A DNA stretch of 64,000 nt, from NCBI RefSeq assembly GCF_000466385.1, contig NZ_KE952720.1, positions 1 to 64,000 on the forward strand, given 5' to 3'. The first letter of the stretch is position 1; each line of letters begins with the position of its first letter. The position numbers and the translations under genes were made by a program. Source of the stretch: Aneurinibacillus aneurinilyticus ATCC 12856 (GTDB taxonomy: Bacteria > Bacillota > Bacilli > Aneurinibacillales > Aneurinibacillaceae). Under the pieces are notes generated by a model. It worked only from the letters and a program-made list of their open reading frames with translations. It had not been told where the DNA came from and ran no database searches. Shown piece after piece: positions 50,952 to 62,592 of the stretch.

Positions 50952-51200
50952 AAAAAAACCCGCCCCAAAAAGGGACGAGTTTGCTCGCGGTACCACCCTT
51001 AGTTAAGGACTAAAGTCCTTCACTCATACGGATAACGGCCTATGGCTGCCCATATGCCGTCCGCCCACAACTAAGACAAGATGCGGTGCGGATTCACTCC
51101 TACGCTGTATTTCATCGCTTGACTGGGCCGATTTACACCTTCCACCGACTCTCTGTTATTTCCAGTACTCAAGCCACTACTATTACGTATTCATTGCGAA
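50952..51200 (-). promoter_or_regulatory. T-box riboswitch of tyrS
   Basis: On the minus strand the T-box AAGGGTGGTACCGCG (51000-50986) precedes a terminator stem ACTCGTCCC/GGGGCGGGT (50981-50953) ending in seven T. Upstream are the stem I marks AGAGAGTCGGTGG, and a TAC tyrosine triplet at 51109-51107 in GAAATACAG is the candidate specifier. Uncharged tRNA-Tyr would favour read-through. Confidence 0.92.
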
Positions 51201-51285
51201 TACAATGATATTGTTTTGTTGTTATTCTCATAATAACTAAAAATAGTGCAAAAATGCAACATTTATCCTCTACCACCGTCTTTAT

Positions 51286-58278: not shown

Positions 58279-58326
58279 AAAAGCAACACCTGCTCTGCTA
58301 ACTGAAACGGGCAGGTGTTGCTTTTT
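58279..58326 (+). terminator. Terminator after acuC
   Basis: AAAAGCAACACCTGC and GCAGGTGTTGCTTTTT are perfect inverted arms around a 19-base loop. Confidence 0.88.
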
Positions 58327-58350: not shown

Positions 58351-58542
58351 TTAATGTTTAGTCGAATCCATAATACATACAATACGCTGATGAATGTACG
58401 ATAGTTTGTTTAACATTGACAAAAAATCTTCATGTTTACATGACTTGTGTTGAGACAACACACGTGCTATAACCTTTGCTTCAATTTGCAATTCAACAAC
58501 ATTCACACACTTATTAATTCTTTCGATAAATTCGATATTCAT
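58351..58542 (-). CDS. 63-aa hypothetical protein
   Basis: Begins MNIEFIERINKCVNVVELQI and is mostly helical with three cysteines. Size and helical nature recall Spo0E-like phosphatases, but the SQELD signature is absent. No ribosome site lies before the ATG, so coding is doubtful. It is downstream of the chemoreceptor on the same strand. Confidence 0.35.
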   Translation of the reverse strand: MNIEFIERINKCVNVVELQIEAKVIARVLSQHKSCKHEDFLSMLNKLSYIHQRIVCIMDSTKH

Positions 58543-58615: not shown

Positions 58616-60382
58616 CTATAATTTGAATTTATTTATGGACAATTGCAATTCCTGTGCAAGAACTTTAAGTCTAGCTGTAAAATTTGATAGTTCTTCGATT
58701 GAAGAAACCTGGTTTTCAACAGCTGATGTAATGCTTTCCGAACCGATAGCCACTTCTCTTGCTATTCCGGCCATTTCTTGTATAGAAGCTGCTACCTGTT
58801 CGGCTCCTGCAGAAATTTGCTGGGAAGCGGCTGATACCTCCTGAACTTGATTGTTCACATGCTCAAAAGATTTTCTGATATTCTCAAAAGCTTCACCGGC
58901 TTCATTAATGTCATTCAATCCTGCTTCAACTTCATCGGCTTCTTTTTGCATACTAGAGATAGCTTCATTAGCGTCCTCCTGCATCCGCTTAATAAAACCG
59001 GAAATTTCCTCAGCCGATTTTTTCGATTGTTCGGCGAGCTTTCTCACTTCATCCGCTACAACAGCAAAACCTTTCCCATGCTCTCCAGCACGCGCAGCTT
59101 CAATAGCCGCGTTAAGGGACAATAAATTTGTTTGCTCTGTAATTTCGGTAATTACATCCGTAATTTTTTCAATTTCCTTAGAGTGTTCTCCTAATTTTTT
59201 CACTAGCAATGTCGTGCCGTCTACCGATTTGCTAATGGATTGCATCTGTTGAATGGCCTTGGCCAGTGAAGCATTTCCATTTTGCACTTCTTTTATTGAA
59301 TCATCAGAGGTTTCTGCTACTTTTGCGGATGATCCGGCAATACGTTCAATTCCTATTGCCGTTTCTTCCATCGTACTTGCCACCTCCTCACCTGTTTGAG
59401 AAGAAGCTTCCGCACCTTGGTTCAATCCTTCAACAGTCACTGCAATTTGCTTACTCGCCTTACTCGTTTCTTCCATATTGTTCATTAATTGTTCTGATAC
59501 CGTTGCAACATGAATACTCGCATCATTTACTTTTGCAATAATATCTTTCAGTCCGCTTATCATCTCATTAATTGCATTGGCAAGCTCTCCTATTTCATCT
59601 GTAGACTTTGCCTCAATCGTCTTTACCGTCAAATCTCCTTCACTTATTCTTTTGGCTATATTGCTTACATGCAGAATAAGCTTGATTTTTTGATTAAACA
59701 GCCATATAAACACGCCCATGCAAATTAATGAAAACAGAGCAATACCAGCAGCTATAACCCCTTTTATAAGCGGAAGAGAGCCATAAAATTCTTCCGGGTA
59801 TACGGCAATACCAAGCGTCCATCCCCAGGGTTGATAATATTCTACATAACTCATCTGTGTCCGCTCTTTGGTTTCGCCTTCATTTTTCCATGTATAAGTT
59901 AGCAAACGTTCATTGGCATTGCTACTCTTACTCGCTTTTACAAGATCCTGTATTAAATAGGTTCCATCTTCAAGCTTAAATTCTTTTTGATTCTGTCCCT
60001 CATACCCTAGCGGATGCATAACCGCAAGATAATTATCGTCATATGCCCACATGTATCCTTCTTTTTTGTAGATAAAAGGTGATTTGCTTAAATCACGCAT
60101 TTTTTTATCTTCAGACAATGGACCATTAATATACTCTTTTGCTCTATTTTTGGCTTGTTCCAATGTAAGATGGCCATTTTTCACCTCTTCATCCAATACC
60201 CTGATTACAGTGACTGCACCACCGACAATTTGGTGCAAATTCTGGATACCTGCCTTCTCAAGCTCCCCTTTTGCAGCATAATAAGTGACAATACCTACTA
60301 AAGAGCTTGAAAAAATAATAGCAGCCGTTACTGCTATTATTAATTTCCATCGTATACTAAGGTTTTTCTTTCTTTTCAACAT
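58616..60382 (-). CDS. Methyl-accepting chemotaxis protein with Cache domain
   Basis: 588 aa. Membrane segment about 12-32, an extracellular single Cache domain ([20 protein letters not shown] and [18 protein letters not shown]) typical for small organic acids, a second membrane segment (about 205-225), HAMP, and the signalling hairpin with [20 protein letters not shown]. Signals to CheA. Its ATG shares a base with the HTH peptide stop (TGATG), with GAGAGG ahead. It is the main output gene of the riboswitch-controlled unit. Confidence 0.92.
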
Positions 60383-60555
60383 CACAAGACCTCTCTTTTA
60401 CGATAATTCTCGTTCATATCTTTATGCTCACGTATCCAGCGGTATATAGTTTGGCTATTTATACCATATTTTCGAGCTACTATACTGCATTTATATCCCT
60501 TCATAACTTCGCTAACAACATCATGCTTAAGTGTTAAAGAGTAATTTCTTTTCAT
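60382..60555 (-). CDS. 57-aa helix-turn-helix peptide
   Basis: Starts [20 protein letters not shown]; a helix-turn-helix follows ([19 protein letters not shown]). It resembles the N-terminal HTH of IS3-type OrfA transposase proteins but ends at 57 residues and has no second ORF. AAGGAG is six bases before the ATG. Stop and the MCP start overlap, so the two are coupled. It may be a domesticated DNA-binding peptide or a leader needed for MCP translation. Confidence 0.75.
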
Positions 60556-60621
60556 CTCCGTCTCCTTACTTTGTATCTTTCATAGCTAAGTTCCATCCGT
60601 ACAATCCTCTGTGTATCCTTA

Positions 60622-60778
60622 AAATAAAAAGGGCTATACCTGATACCGGAATTACCGAATAGGAAATAGCCTTTCACCTCTGGAAAATTTCGGTAACCCG
60701 GCTATCTTCATTCCTGCGGAACCTTAGACCCGTGGCTTTGCGTCCCTATCTTTCAATAGGTTTGCCTTTATCATTTTA
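60622..60778 (-). ncRNA. c-di-GMP-I (GEMM) riboswitch with terminator platform
   Basis: Minus strand: GGCAAACC (60766-60759), GAAA tetraloop, GGGACGCAAAGCCACGGG, CTAAGG, and GCCGGGTTACCGA (to 60690) match the GEMM-I aptamer. Then GGCTAT ... ATAGCC followed by CTTTTTATTTT (to 60622) is a terminator. The 8-base TTACCGAA (aptamer end, 60696-60689) is complementary to TTCGGTAA (60658-60651) inside the terminator, giving an antiterminator. It lies 15 bases after the EAL gene and before the HTH-MCP pair. I expect ligand to cause termination (inference). Confidence 0.9.
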
Positions 60779-60794
60779 TTTACTTTTATAACAA

Positions 60795-61517
60795 CTAGCT
60801 AAATTGTTCGGGCTTCCCCAGTAAATATCCCTGTCCTATATTAACTCCTAACAATTTAGCTATTGCCAGATCTTCCGATTTTTCAATCCCTTCTAATATT
60901 AAGTAAGCTTCATCCTTACAATAGCTTACTAATAATTCTATTAATCGTTGTTTTCTTGGACATACAGATAAATCAATTGAAAAATATCTATCCAATTTAA
61001 CAAAATCCGGTTCAAACTCTACAAGGTTTTTAAAAGAGGCAGAGCCTTTACCTACATCATCCAGTGCAATCTGAAACCCATTCTGGTGCAGAAAAGAGAG
61101 TATATTACGCATCGATTTAACATCATTTATTTCCTGGGATTCATTAATTTCTAACACTATCTCTCCTTTGGATACAGTGTAGTCAGAAAGTAATCCATCT
61201 AAAAAACAATGAAAATCAGGATGCAATAATGTAGAAGGAAAAATATTCACAAATAATGAAGTTTGTAACGCTTTATTCTTGGGTGTGTAAGAAACAATTG
61301 CCTTAAACAGTGACAAAATATCAAGTTCGTATAGCTTATCAATCCTTTCAGCATTTTGAAACAATTGCTCAGGTGAAACAAAGTATTGAGTTCGCAAAAA
61401 AGCTTCATACCCTAGTAAAGACCAATCAGAAAGAAAGTACAGTGGTTGATAGACGTGATGAAACAGCCTATTCTCAATAACTTTCTCAGTCTGTTCGTCC
61501 AGCAGCGTCTTTTTCAT
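60795..61517 (-). CDS. EAL-domain c-di-GMP phosphodiesterase
   Basis: 240 aa, a bare EAL domain with no sensor. Residues seen: E38 in GYEAFLR (EAF variant), N91, E123 in LEINES, D153-D154 in ALDDVGKG, K174 in VKLDR, E209 and E212 in LEGIEKS, and Q229 in GQGYLLGKP. Metal and catalytic positions look complete, so hydrolysis to pGpG is likely. The riboswitch begins 15 bases downstream. An upstream promoter inside the recombinase segment points at it. Confidence 0.88.
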   Translation of the reverse strand: MKKTLLDEQTEKVIENRLFHHVYQPLYFLSDWSLLGYEAFLRTQYFVSPEQLFQNAERIDKLYELDILSLFKAIVSYTPKNKALQTSLFVNIFPSTLLHPDFHCFLDGLLSDYTVSKGEIVLEINESQEINDVKSMRNILSFLHQNGFQIALDDVGKGSASFKNLVEFEPDFVKLDRYFSIDLSVCPRKQRLIELLVSYCKDEAYLILEGIEKSEDLAIAKLLGVNIGQGYLLGKPEQFS

Positions 61518-61577: not shown

Positions 61578-61615
61578 ATTTAATCTAACAAAATAGACAT
61601 TTTGTTAGATTAAAT
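61578..61615. repeat. Recombination-site candidate 1 (perfect palindrome)
   Basis: Arms ATTTAATCTAACAAAAT (61578-61594) and its exact complement (61599-61615) around AGAC. Inner elements TAATCTAACAA and TTGTTAGATTA with a roughly 10-base centre look like the paired binding arms of a tyrosine recombinase core site. It is in the leader of the EAL gene. Reverse-complemented, it matches site 2 over 27 bases. Confidence 0.7.
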
Positions 61616-61639
61616 AGAAAAAATATCTAGTCCTTTTTC

Positions 61640-61668
61640 ATTATAACTACTTCTAATTTAAAAATCGA
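61640..61668 (-). promoter_or_regulatory. Promoter inside the recombinase segment, pointing at the EAL gene
   Basis: Minus strand TCGATT (61668-61663), 17 bases, TATAAT (61645-61640). The -10 is perfect, the -35 weak. It is between site 1 and the recombinase stop, so transcription crosses site 1 into the EAL gene, with a leader of about 115 bases. Confidence 0.55.
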
Positions 61669-61705
61669 TATAGCTTTGCAGTTACATTTTTTCTTTTTTC
61701 GCTTT

Positions 61706-62269
61706 TCATAAACAAAATTTTTCCAATGCCTTATCAACCATATCATCATTAATACCTATATATCTCATTGTGATTGAAGGGCTAGAATGCCCAAATATAT
61801 ATTGTAACAATGCTACATCTTTTGATTGCTGGTAAAAATGATACCCAAATGTTTTTCGTAAAGTATGTGTACCGATAGGCCCTTCGACCCCGCAGGCTCT
61901 CGCTGCATGATTAATAATTTGCCAAGCATGCACACGGCTGATTGGCTTTCCTCCCTTTTGGGAAGGGAATAAATACTCTGAATCAGCCATTTTTCTTGAA
62001 TATCGTTCTATTTCATTCTTTAGTGTCTGTGTTATTATGGTCCTCCTTATATTTTTAGTTTTCTTTTCTTGAATGATTAAGTGCTTTGTATATTTAACAT
62101 CCATTACCCGTAGAGGCAATATATCACTAATTCTGAGACCTGAGTTGATTCCAAAAATAAATAAAAAATAATTTCTATAGGAACGACGTAGGAGGTAGTT
62201 TTTTATCTCTTGTATTTTCTCAATCTCCCGTATTGGTTCAACAGCATTTGCACCTTTTTTTGTTGTCAT
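61706..62269 (-). CDS. Small tyrosine recombinase (FimB/FimE-sized)
   Basis: 187 aa, only the catalytic domain plus a short N-terminus; most integrases exceed 280 aa. Catalytic residues: R46 in SGLRISDI, a Lys near 70-72, H135 and R138 in HTLRK, H161 in FGHSS, and Y170 in MRYIG, so it should be active. FimB and FimE, which flip the fim promoter in E. coli, have a similar size. ATG 62269 follows GGAG by eight bases; GTG 62278 is in frame. It is flanked by sites 1 and 2 with 90 and 130 bases to spare. Confidence 0.9.
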   Translation of the reverse strand: MTTKKGANAVEPIREIEKIQEIKNYLLRRSYRNYFLFIFGINSGLRISDILPLRVMDVKYTKHLIIQEKKTKNIRRTIITQTLKNEIERYSRKMADSEYLFPSQKGGKPISRVHAWQIINHAARACGVEGPIGTHTLRKTFGYHFYQQSKDVALLQYIFGHSSPSITMRYIGINDDMVDKALEKFCL

Positions 62270-62354
62270 AGAAGCCACTCCATTGTGTGAATAAATATTT
62301 AACTAATGATTCAATATGTTATATTATCTCATTCTATTTGTTTTTTGGATATAC

Positions 62355-62390
62355 TAAAAAACCTTTAAAATAAAGGCTTTTTTGCTTTTT
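62355..62390. terminator. Hairpin with T runs on both strands, next to site 2
   Basis: AAAAAACCTTTA and TAAAGGCTTTTTT pair, with T runs reading out to both sides. Reading rightward it lies just before site 2, so if the segment were inverted it would stand in front of the EAL gene. Confidence 0.6.
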
Positions 62391-62401
62391 TTAGTGTCAT
62401 T

Positions 62402-62439
62402 TGAAACATAACAAAATGTCTATTTTGTTAGATTATTCT
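62402..62439. repeat. Recombination-site candidate 2 (inverted partner of site 1)
   Basis: TAACAAAAT, GTCT, ATTTTGTTAGATTA (62409-62435) equals the reverse complement of site 1 for 27 bases; the central GTCT is the complement of AGAC. The left arm beyond that point is changed (GAAACA). Confidence 0.7.
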
Positions 62440-62518
62440 CCATATACATATAGAAAATAAAAATTTACTAAATAAATGAACGACTAGGAGAGCAGTAAAC
62501 TCCCTTAAATCAAAGAAA

Positions 62519-62548
62519 TATAGGCGGGAGACAATTCTCCCGCCTATA
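62519..62548. terminator. Terminator after the ABC transporter gene
   Basis: ATAGGCGGGAGA / TCTCCCGCCTAT around a short loop, with T-rich sequence on both sides (ATTTTATT, ATTTC). Confidence 0.85.
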
Positions 62549-62592
62549 TTTTATTAACTGATACCTACTTTACCAGACCATGAATTCTTATG

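Follow-up and report, generated by a model that had tools for sequence, protein, structure and literature searches.

A probable phase-variable c-di-GMP module with a riboswitch-controlled chemoreceptor operon in Aneurinibacillus aneurinilyticus

Results

We analyzed a 64,000-nt stretch (the window) of the 5.3-Mb draft genome of Aneurinibacillus aneurinilyticus ATCC 12856 (G000). Its minus strand carries a locus that we consider, with good though incomplete confidence, to be a phase-variable c-di-GMP module built as a feed-forward AND gate. In transcription order, the row consists of a tyrosine recombinase, an EAL-domain phosphodiesterase (PDE), a c-di-GMP-I riboswitch, an HTH peptide, a methyl-accepting chemotaxis protein (MCP), and a 63-aa protein. 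Whether a given cell lowers c-di-GMP and makes receptor is probably determined by a random DNA flip. The genomes used for comparison include Aneurinibacillus danicus NBRC 102444, from the same genus (G001), a sister genome of G000 (G002), and two further genomes labeled G005 and G009.

The initial annotation of this DNA had placed an EAL phosphodiesterase, a c-di-GMP-I riboswitch, an HTH peptide, and a chemoreceptor in one row at 58616–61517. All four are present on the minus strand by Pfam or Rfam matches, and these coordinates correctly span the end of the MCP gene to the start of the EAL gene. The stand-alone EAL protein (60795–61517, 240 aa; Pfam EAL, 1.3e-41) is followed by the riboswitch aptamer (60689–60776), a 57-aa orphan, transposase-like HTH peptide (60382–60555; HTH_Tnp_1, 7.9e-9), and an MCP with sCache_2-HAMP-MCPsignal architecture (58616–60385; MCPsignal, 1.1e-49; sCache_2, 2.8e-31). 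The coupling proposed for HTH and MCP behind the riboswitch is visible as a TGATG in which the MCP start overlaps the HTH stop. The order from EAL to riboswitch stands as described; the operon itself is longer than described and extends to the gene for the 63-aa protein (58351–58542), which also lies behind the MCP orthologue in A. danicus and G009. A stem-loop with A/T-rich flanks (58279–58325; 15-bp perfect inverted repeat) closes the operon. Searching a plasmid collection with the whole region returned zero matches. Elsewhere in the window, the minus strand carries a T-box leader at 50968–51203 (RF00230, 109.9 bits).

The recombinase gene (61706–62278, minus strand; 190 aa from GTG, likely ATG start at 62269; Pfam Phage_integrase, 1.6e-26) is flanked by perfect 27-bp inverted repeats. 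The outer site (62409–62435) reads TAACAAAA-TGTCTA-TTTTGTTA and is 100% complementary to the EAL-side site (61581–61607); the repeats have the form TAACAAAA-6-TTTTGTTA with asymmetric centers, and the two sites are oppositely oriented. Between them lies an 801-bp segment (61608–62408) whose homologue in G005 has the opposite orientation. The nearest solved structure to the recombinase is XerC-like (4a8e), and only one close homologue is found in G000. In G001, G002, and G005, the recombinase segment has the EAL gene on one side and a divergent GGDEF gene on the other, with the recombinase pointing to EAL in G001 and G002 and to GGDEF in G005. The GGDEF–EAL intervals of G000, G001, and G002 match G005 only when inverted (local scores 665–683 versus 53–58). 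Both cassette orientations are observed between genomes, a comparison in which one assembly represents the window strain. The promoter inversion raised earlier as a possibility is thus supported both by the perfect repeats around the recombinase gene and by the orientation differences. Judged by its sequence, the locus is a probable phase-variable invertible promoter: it has inverted sites, both orientations between genomes, and a putative promoter inside the segment aimed at a target gene. The resident recombinase would act on its flanking 27-bp sites.

The putative outward promoter is a TCGATT-N17-TATAAT motif (61640–61668, minus strand) in the noncoding stretch that separates the recombinase stop from the EAL-side repeat. 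It is directed to EAL in the present assembly; its -10 TATAAT ends 33 bp before the EAL-side site, and the motif is the single match in the window (0.16 expected). Our promoter scoring used an approximate position weight matrix, and by score alone the promoter was not above shuffled sequence (no site exceeded the shuffle maximum); generic sigma-70 and terminator scans were also no better than shuffles. Conservation and spacing were used instead, and these support the assignment. TNGATT-N17-TATAAT occurs at exactly 33 bp from a site in the cassettes of G000, G001, and G002 and in two recombinase-less elements, C171 and L021, described below; the motif is also present in the G002 copy of the C171 element. 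Across 11 family genomes, TATAAT-N33-site (one mismatch allowed) was found at five places, all of them such elements, and the reversed control pattern gave zero matches. The G005 cassette has no TATAAT element at the corresponding place, so its cyclase may be driven by read-through from the recombinase promoter.

The EAL protein aligns with BlrP1 (3gfx) and other EAL enzymes. Relative to BlrP1 it retains the catalytic and metal-binding residues (E of EAL, N, E, DD, K, E, Q); its EAL signature reads EAF, and loop 6, DDFGTG, reads DDVGKG. We regard it as a probable active c-di-GMP phosphodiesterase. On the other side of the switch, G001 and G002 encode a membrane GGDEF protein near the outer site, with an intact GGDEF motif and RxxD before it; its closest solved structures are diguanylate cyclases (DGCs). 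The motif is present in the relatives' cyclases. Three genomes carry the GGDEF-recombinase-EAL trio, each at a different genomic location, a pattern that speaks for functional coupling, and flipping in these three relatives should, to judge from gene content, exchange PDE for DGC expression. The window strain, as read from its alignment with G002, has lost the divergent DGC gene and keeps a scar at 62482–62555: homology breaks at 62482 and returns at 62555, with the GGDEF gene lying between in G002. No close copy of the lost gene was found elsewhere in G000. Reverse orientation in the window strain would therefore only turn the PDE off.

A genome-wide pattern search of G000 found exactly one further site pair, on contig C171, with the sites 344 bp apart. 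This element (L113:6546–6909) faces a further HTH peptide gene that precedes an MCP gene, together a paralogous HTH/MCP operon. Its 324 inner bp align with G002 at 81% identity only after inversion (alignment score 395 versus -13 uninverted; null maximum 31), and the outer flanks are colinear (82% and 88%). Both sites are intact in G000. The G002 copy (L155:830–1189) is missing half of one site and is presumably locked. A. danicus has another recombinase-less version (L021:6115–7155), with 213 bp between its arms, before a second EAL gene with an MCP gene next. When reversed, its content aligns with the 5' flank of the recombinase (score 109 versus a shuffle maximum of 61), and its promoter motif currently faces away from EAL. 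The same recombinase probably flips the C171 promoter in trans.

These elements bear on two alternative explanations. The repeats and recombinase could be decaying or locked in this strain, leaving EAL simply constitutive, as might be expected from the half-site lost in the G002 C171 copy and from the cyclase gene already missing in the window strain. We consider this unlikely, since the two window sites match perfectly over 27 bp, the recombinase gene has an open frame with 98% identity to its G002 counterpart, and neither C171 site in G000 is damaged. It is less probable still, to the point of being hard to credit, that the recombinase and its repeats are a mobile element that landed beside EAL and has no regulatory meaning. 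Close recombinase relatives with flanking repeats do occur in several genera at unrelated positions, but the GGDEF-recombinase-EAL trio stays together at its three locations in three genomes, the promoter keeps its fixed 33 bp, and even recombinase-less copies retain promoter and sites before EAL or HTH/MCP genes. We retain the phase-variable invertible promoter as our reading of the locus.

More distant recombinase relatives (Domibacillus, Geobacillus, and others) are mostly without a directly flanking repeat pair, and such cases were left out of the cassette count. Related recombinases with flanking inverted sites were seen in G009 (L045:3101–3943), Paenibacillus naphthalenovorans (L048:5841–6691), and a Tepidibacillus decaturensis MAG (L053:5874–6740). 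Their neighbors are MCP, CheW, CheB, or EAL/GGDEF genes, which suggests a wider family of motility-linked invertible cassettes in other genera. On contig C26 of G009, a 715-N run upstream of a homologue of the 63-aa protein (L154:2454–3208) is bounded exactly by an inverted-site pair; it is perhaps an assembly gap from mixed orientations.

The riboswitch aptamer matches Rfam RF01051 over its full length (1–87) with a covariance score of 89.7 bits against a cut-off of 35. In the antiterminator (60652–60696), the aptamer 3' strand TTACCGAA (60696–60689) pairs with the complementary TTCGGTAA downstream (60659–60652). The intrinsic terminator (60626–60675; AAAGGCTAT...ATAGCCCTTTTT; -15.0 kcal/mol for the downstream stretch, T run at the end) was missed by our terminator scan because its loop is too long for the scan. 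Terminator and antiterminator are mutually exclusive in four genomes (G000, G002, G001, and G005), with pairing arms unchanged despite varying linker length. Whole-leader minimum free energy folding was unremarkable (z-score -1.07), and a constrained two-state comparison was used in its place. The energies of the free aptamer strand plus terminator versus the antiterminator were -34.9/-38.0 kcal/mol in G000, -34.2/-37.8 in G002, -46.6/-44.6 in G001, and -39.4/-37.3 in G005, within 4 kcal/mol in every case. Since only one of the two folds can form at a time and the aptamer 3' strand is part of the antiterminator, this model predicts that c-di-GMP causes termination and that the riboswitch is an OFF switch, in line with the initial annotation, which had the signal block the genes behind it.

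The sign of response is not fixed for this aptamer class, and the passages of PMC11218506 on the Bacillus thuringiensis Bc1 riboswitch, which lies before mcpE, report that it loses its terminators upon c-di-GMP in SHAPE. An ON switch, by which c-di-GMP would promote HTH-MCP expression and the PDE would lower receptor synthesis, nevertheless seems improbable here. Given the complementarity of TTCGGTAA to TTACCGAA, a ligand-bound aptamer would free the terminator, and the arms are kept in four genomes though the linker length changes. In addition, class I riboswitches of C. difficile are reported to lower transcription (PMC9286219). An OFF switch is the sign that we adopt. Another c-di-GMP-I riboswitch of G000 (contig C99, L025:1988–2679) precedes the gene for a CheY-like response regulator, behind which an HTH peptide is encoded.

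The EAL stop and the Rfam aptamer boundary are separated by 18 bases, the terminator scan of the window found no terminator-like site between them, and the promoter-like site before the aptamer is weak; from these features, we infer read-through from EAL into the riboswitch. A strong separate promoter directly before the riboswitch, which had been named as evidence against a single transcript, is not seen: the best promoter-like site there reaches a score of 5.6, below the shuffle maximum of about 10, and lacks a good -35; conservation instead marks the invertible promoter at 61640–61668. It is possible, if doubtful, that the two units are merely neighbors with no shared transcript, so that riboswitch-HTH-MCP is transcribed from a separate promoter located where the EAL gene ends, and phase variation is limited to EAL. 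The riboswitch-HTH-MCP unit stands alone in A. danicus and G005 and so must have its own promoter there, and TGTTATAAA lies about 10 nt before the window aptamer, where aptamer L027 of the same genome has a -10-like element. Besides the low score and missing -35, however, G002 has CG rather than TG at the extended -10, and the short gap free of terminator-like sites also favors a common transcript. Read-through from the EAL gene is the arrangement that we prefer.

In A. danicus, riboswitch-HTH-MCP-63aa is located away from the PDE gene, with a further riboswitch-HTH next to it. G005 likewise has riboswitch-HTH-MCP away from the PDE gene, and G009 has MCP-63aa without a riboswitch match. The EAL gene is directly followed by the riboswitch operon in G000 and G002. 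The order EAL-riboswitch-HTH-MCP, which the initial annotation proposed to search for in other genomes, proved to be narrowly distributed: it is complete in G000 only, and G002 keeps EAL-riboswitch-HTH and later lost most of its MCP gene. Because the riboswitch operon stands alone in A. danicus and G005, the window row is best read, from gene order, as two units that occur independently and were fused here.

Orphan HTH peptides of 50–61 aa with an IYRW..EYK motif were found repeatedly right behind c-di-GMP-I riboswitches in this bacterial family (window 60382–60555 and loci L117, L118, L119, L122, L124, L127, L131, L132, L134, L140, L142, L152, and L024). At about nine of these loci, the aptamer end is directly adjoined by an SD-like AGGAG/AGGGG, likely forming a translational switch. 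By these sequence features, the family looks like a dedicated c-di-GMP-controlled DNA-binding peptide.

Discussion

Altogether, we propose that the recombinase flips its own 801-bp segment and, with it, the outward promoter that lies 33 bp in from one repeat. In the present orientation, transcription from this promoter would cross the repeat, enter the EAL gene, and continue into the riboswitch. At high c-di-GMP, the aptamer would keep its 3' strand, the terminator would form, and the transcript would stop after the PDE gene. Once the PDE and the rest of the cell have lowered c-di-GMP, the antiterminator would form and the HTH peptide, MCP, and 63-aa protein would be made. Receptor would thus be made only when the segment is in the ON orientation and c-di-GMP is low, which is the logic of a feed-forward AND gate. 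The same recombinase probably also flips, in trans, the C171 promoter before the paralogous HTH/MCP operon.

The initial annotation had instead proposed a positive loop joining PDE level to chemoreceptor synthesis. Gene order speaks against this: the EAL gene lies upstream of the aptamer, hence outside riboswitch control, and no sequence feature returns the signal to the EAL promoter. The logic would be that of a coherent feed-forward gate rather than a positive loop because the PDE gene is not under the riboswitch. The bistable module suggested at the same time survives in part, in that two states would arise through DNA inversion and not through the riboswitch.

In the ancestral form, as found in the relatives, the other orientation would transcribe the diguanylate cyclase, so that flipping would turn the cell's influence on c-di-GMP around; after cyclase loss, the window strain would keep a PDE ON/OFF switch. 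We lean towards describing this arrangement as a binary c-di-GMP reverser, in which a recombinase resides within its own invertible promoter between divergent DGC and PDE genes, and in which the PDE arm of the window has been fused to a riboswitch-chemoreceptor unit as an AND gate. The phase-variable PDEs of C. difficile are known ON/OFF devices. If our reading is right, one DNA event would split a clonal population into two opposite c-di-GMP states, and the riboswitch-MCP operon behind the cassette would report the outcome as receptor level. The parts are small and belong to a culturable Bacillota genus.

In open-licence papers, we found no earlier description of an invertible element joined to cyclase/PDE genes or of phase variation in Aneurinibacillus, and neither a cassette with a resident recombinase flanked by cyclase and PDE genes nor the fusion seen in the window is described there. 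The closest parallels to the PDE switch are C. difficile pdcB and pdcC, in which an invertible segment upstream of a c-di-GMP PDE gene makes c-di-GMP heterogeneous; at the pdcC switch, a start site is used in one orientation only (PMC9286219). These loci resemble the window in having invertible DNA upstream of a PDE gene. Their PDEs, however, carry a degenerate GGDEF in tandem with EAL, whereas the window EAL is stand-alone; the recombinase of the pdcB switch is not identified in PMC9286219, whereas the window cassette encodes its own; and no divergent cyclase or riboswitch-chemoreceptor operon in the row is described for pdcB/pdcC (PMC9286219).

Expression of C. difficile flgB and cmrRST is under both inversion and c-di-GMP (PMC9286219, PMC8844915, PMC5386303), the same dual control that we propose for the window. 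There, RecV works from another part of the genome, the switch and the riboswitch have no described PDE gene between them, and flagella or a regulatory system, rather than a chemoreceptor operon, are controlled. For the riboswitch half, the passages of PMC11218506 on Bc1 describe a c-di-GMP-I riboswitch with intrinsic termination upstream of mcpE, as in the window, where the same class of riboswitch and intrinsic termination precede a chemoreceptor gene. Bc1 differs in its two tandem terminators and in a reported conformational response opposite in sign to our prediction, and those passages do not note a PDE gene, an invertible promoter, or an HTH peptide. Each half of the locus thus resembles known Clostridioides or Bacillus systems, while the PDE/DGC flip, and the joining of this flip to a riboswitch-MCP operon, appear to be new.
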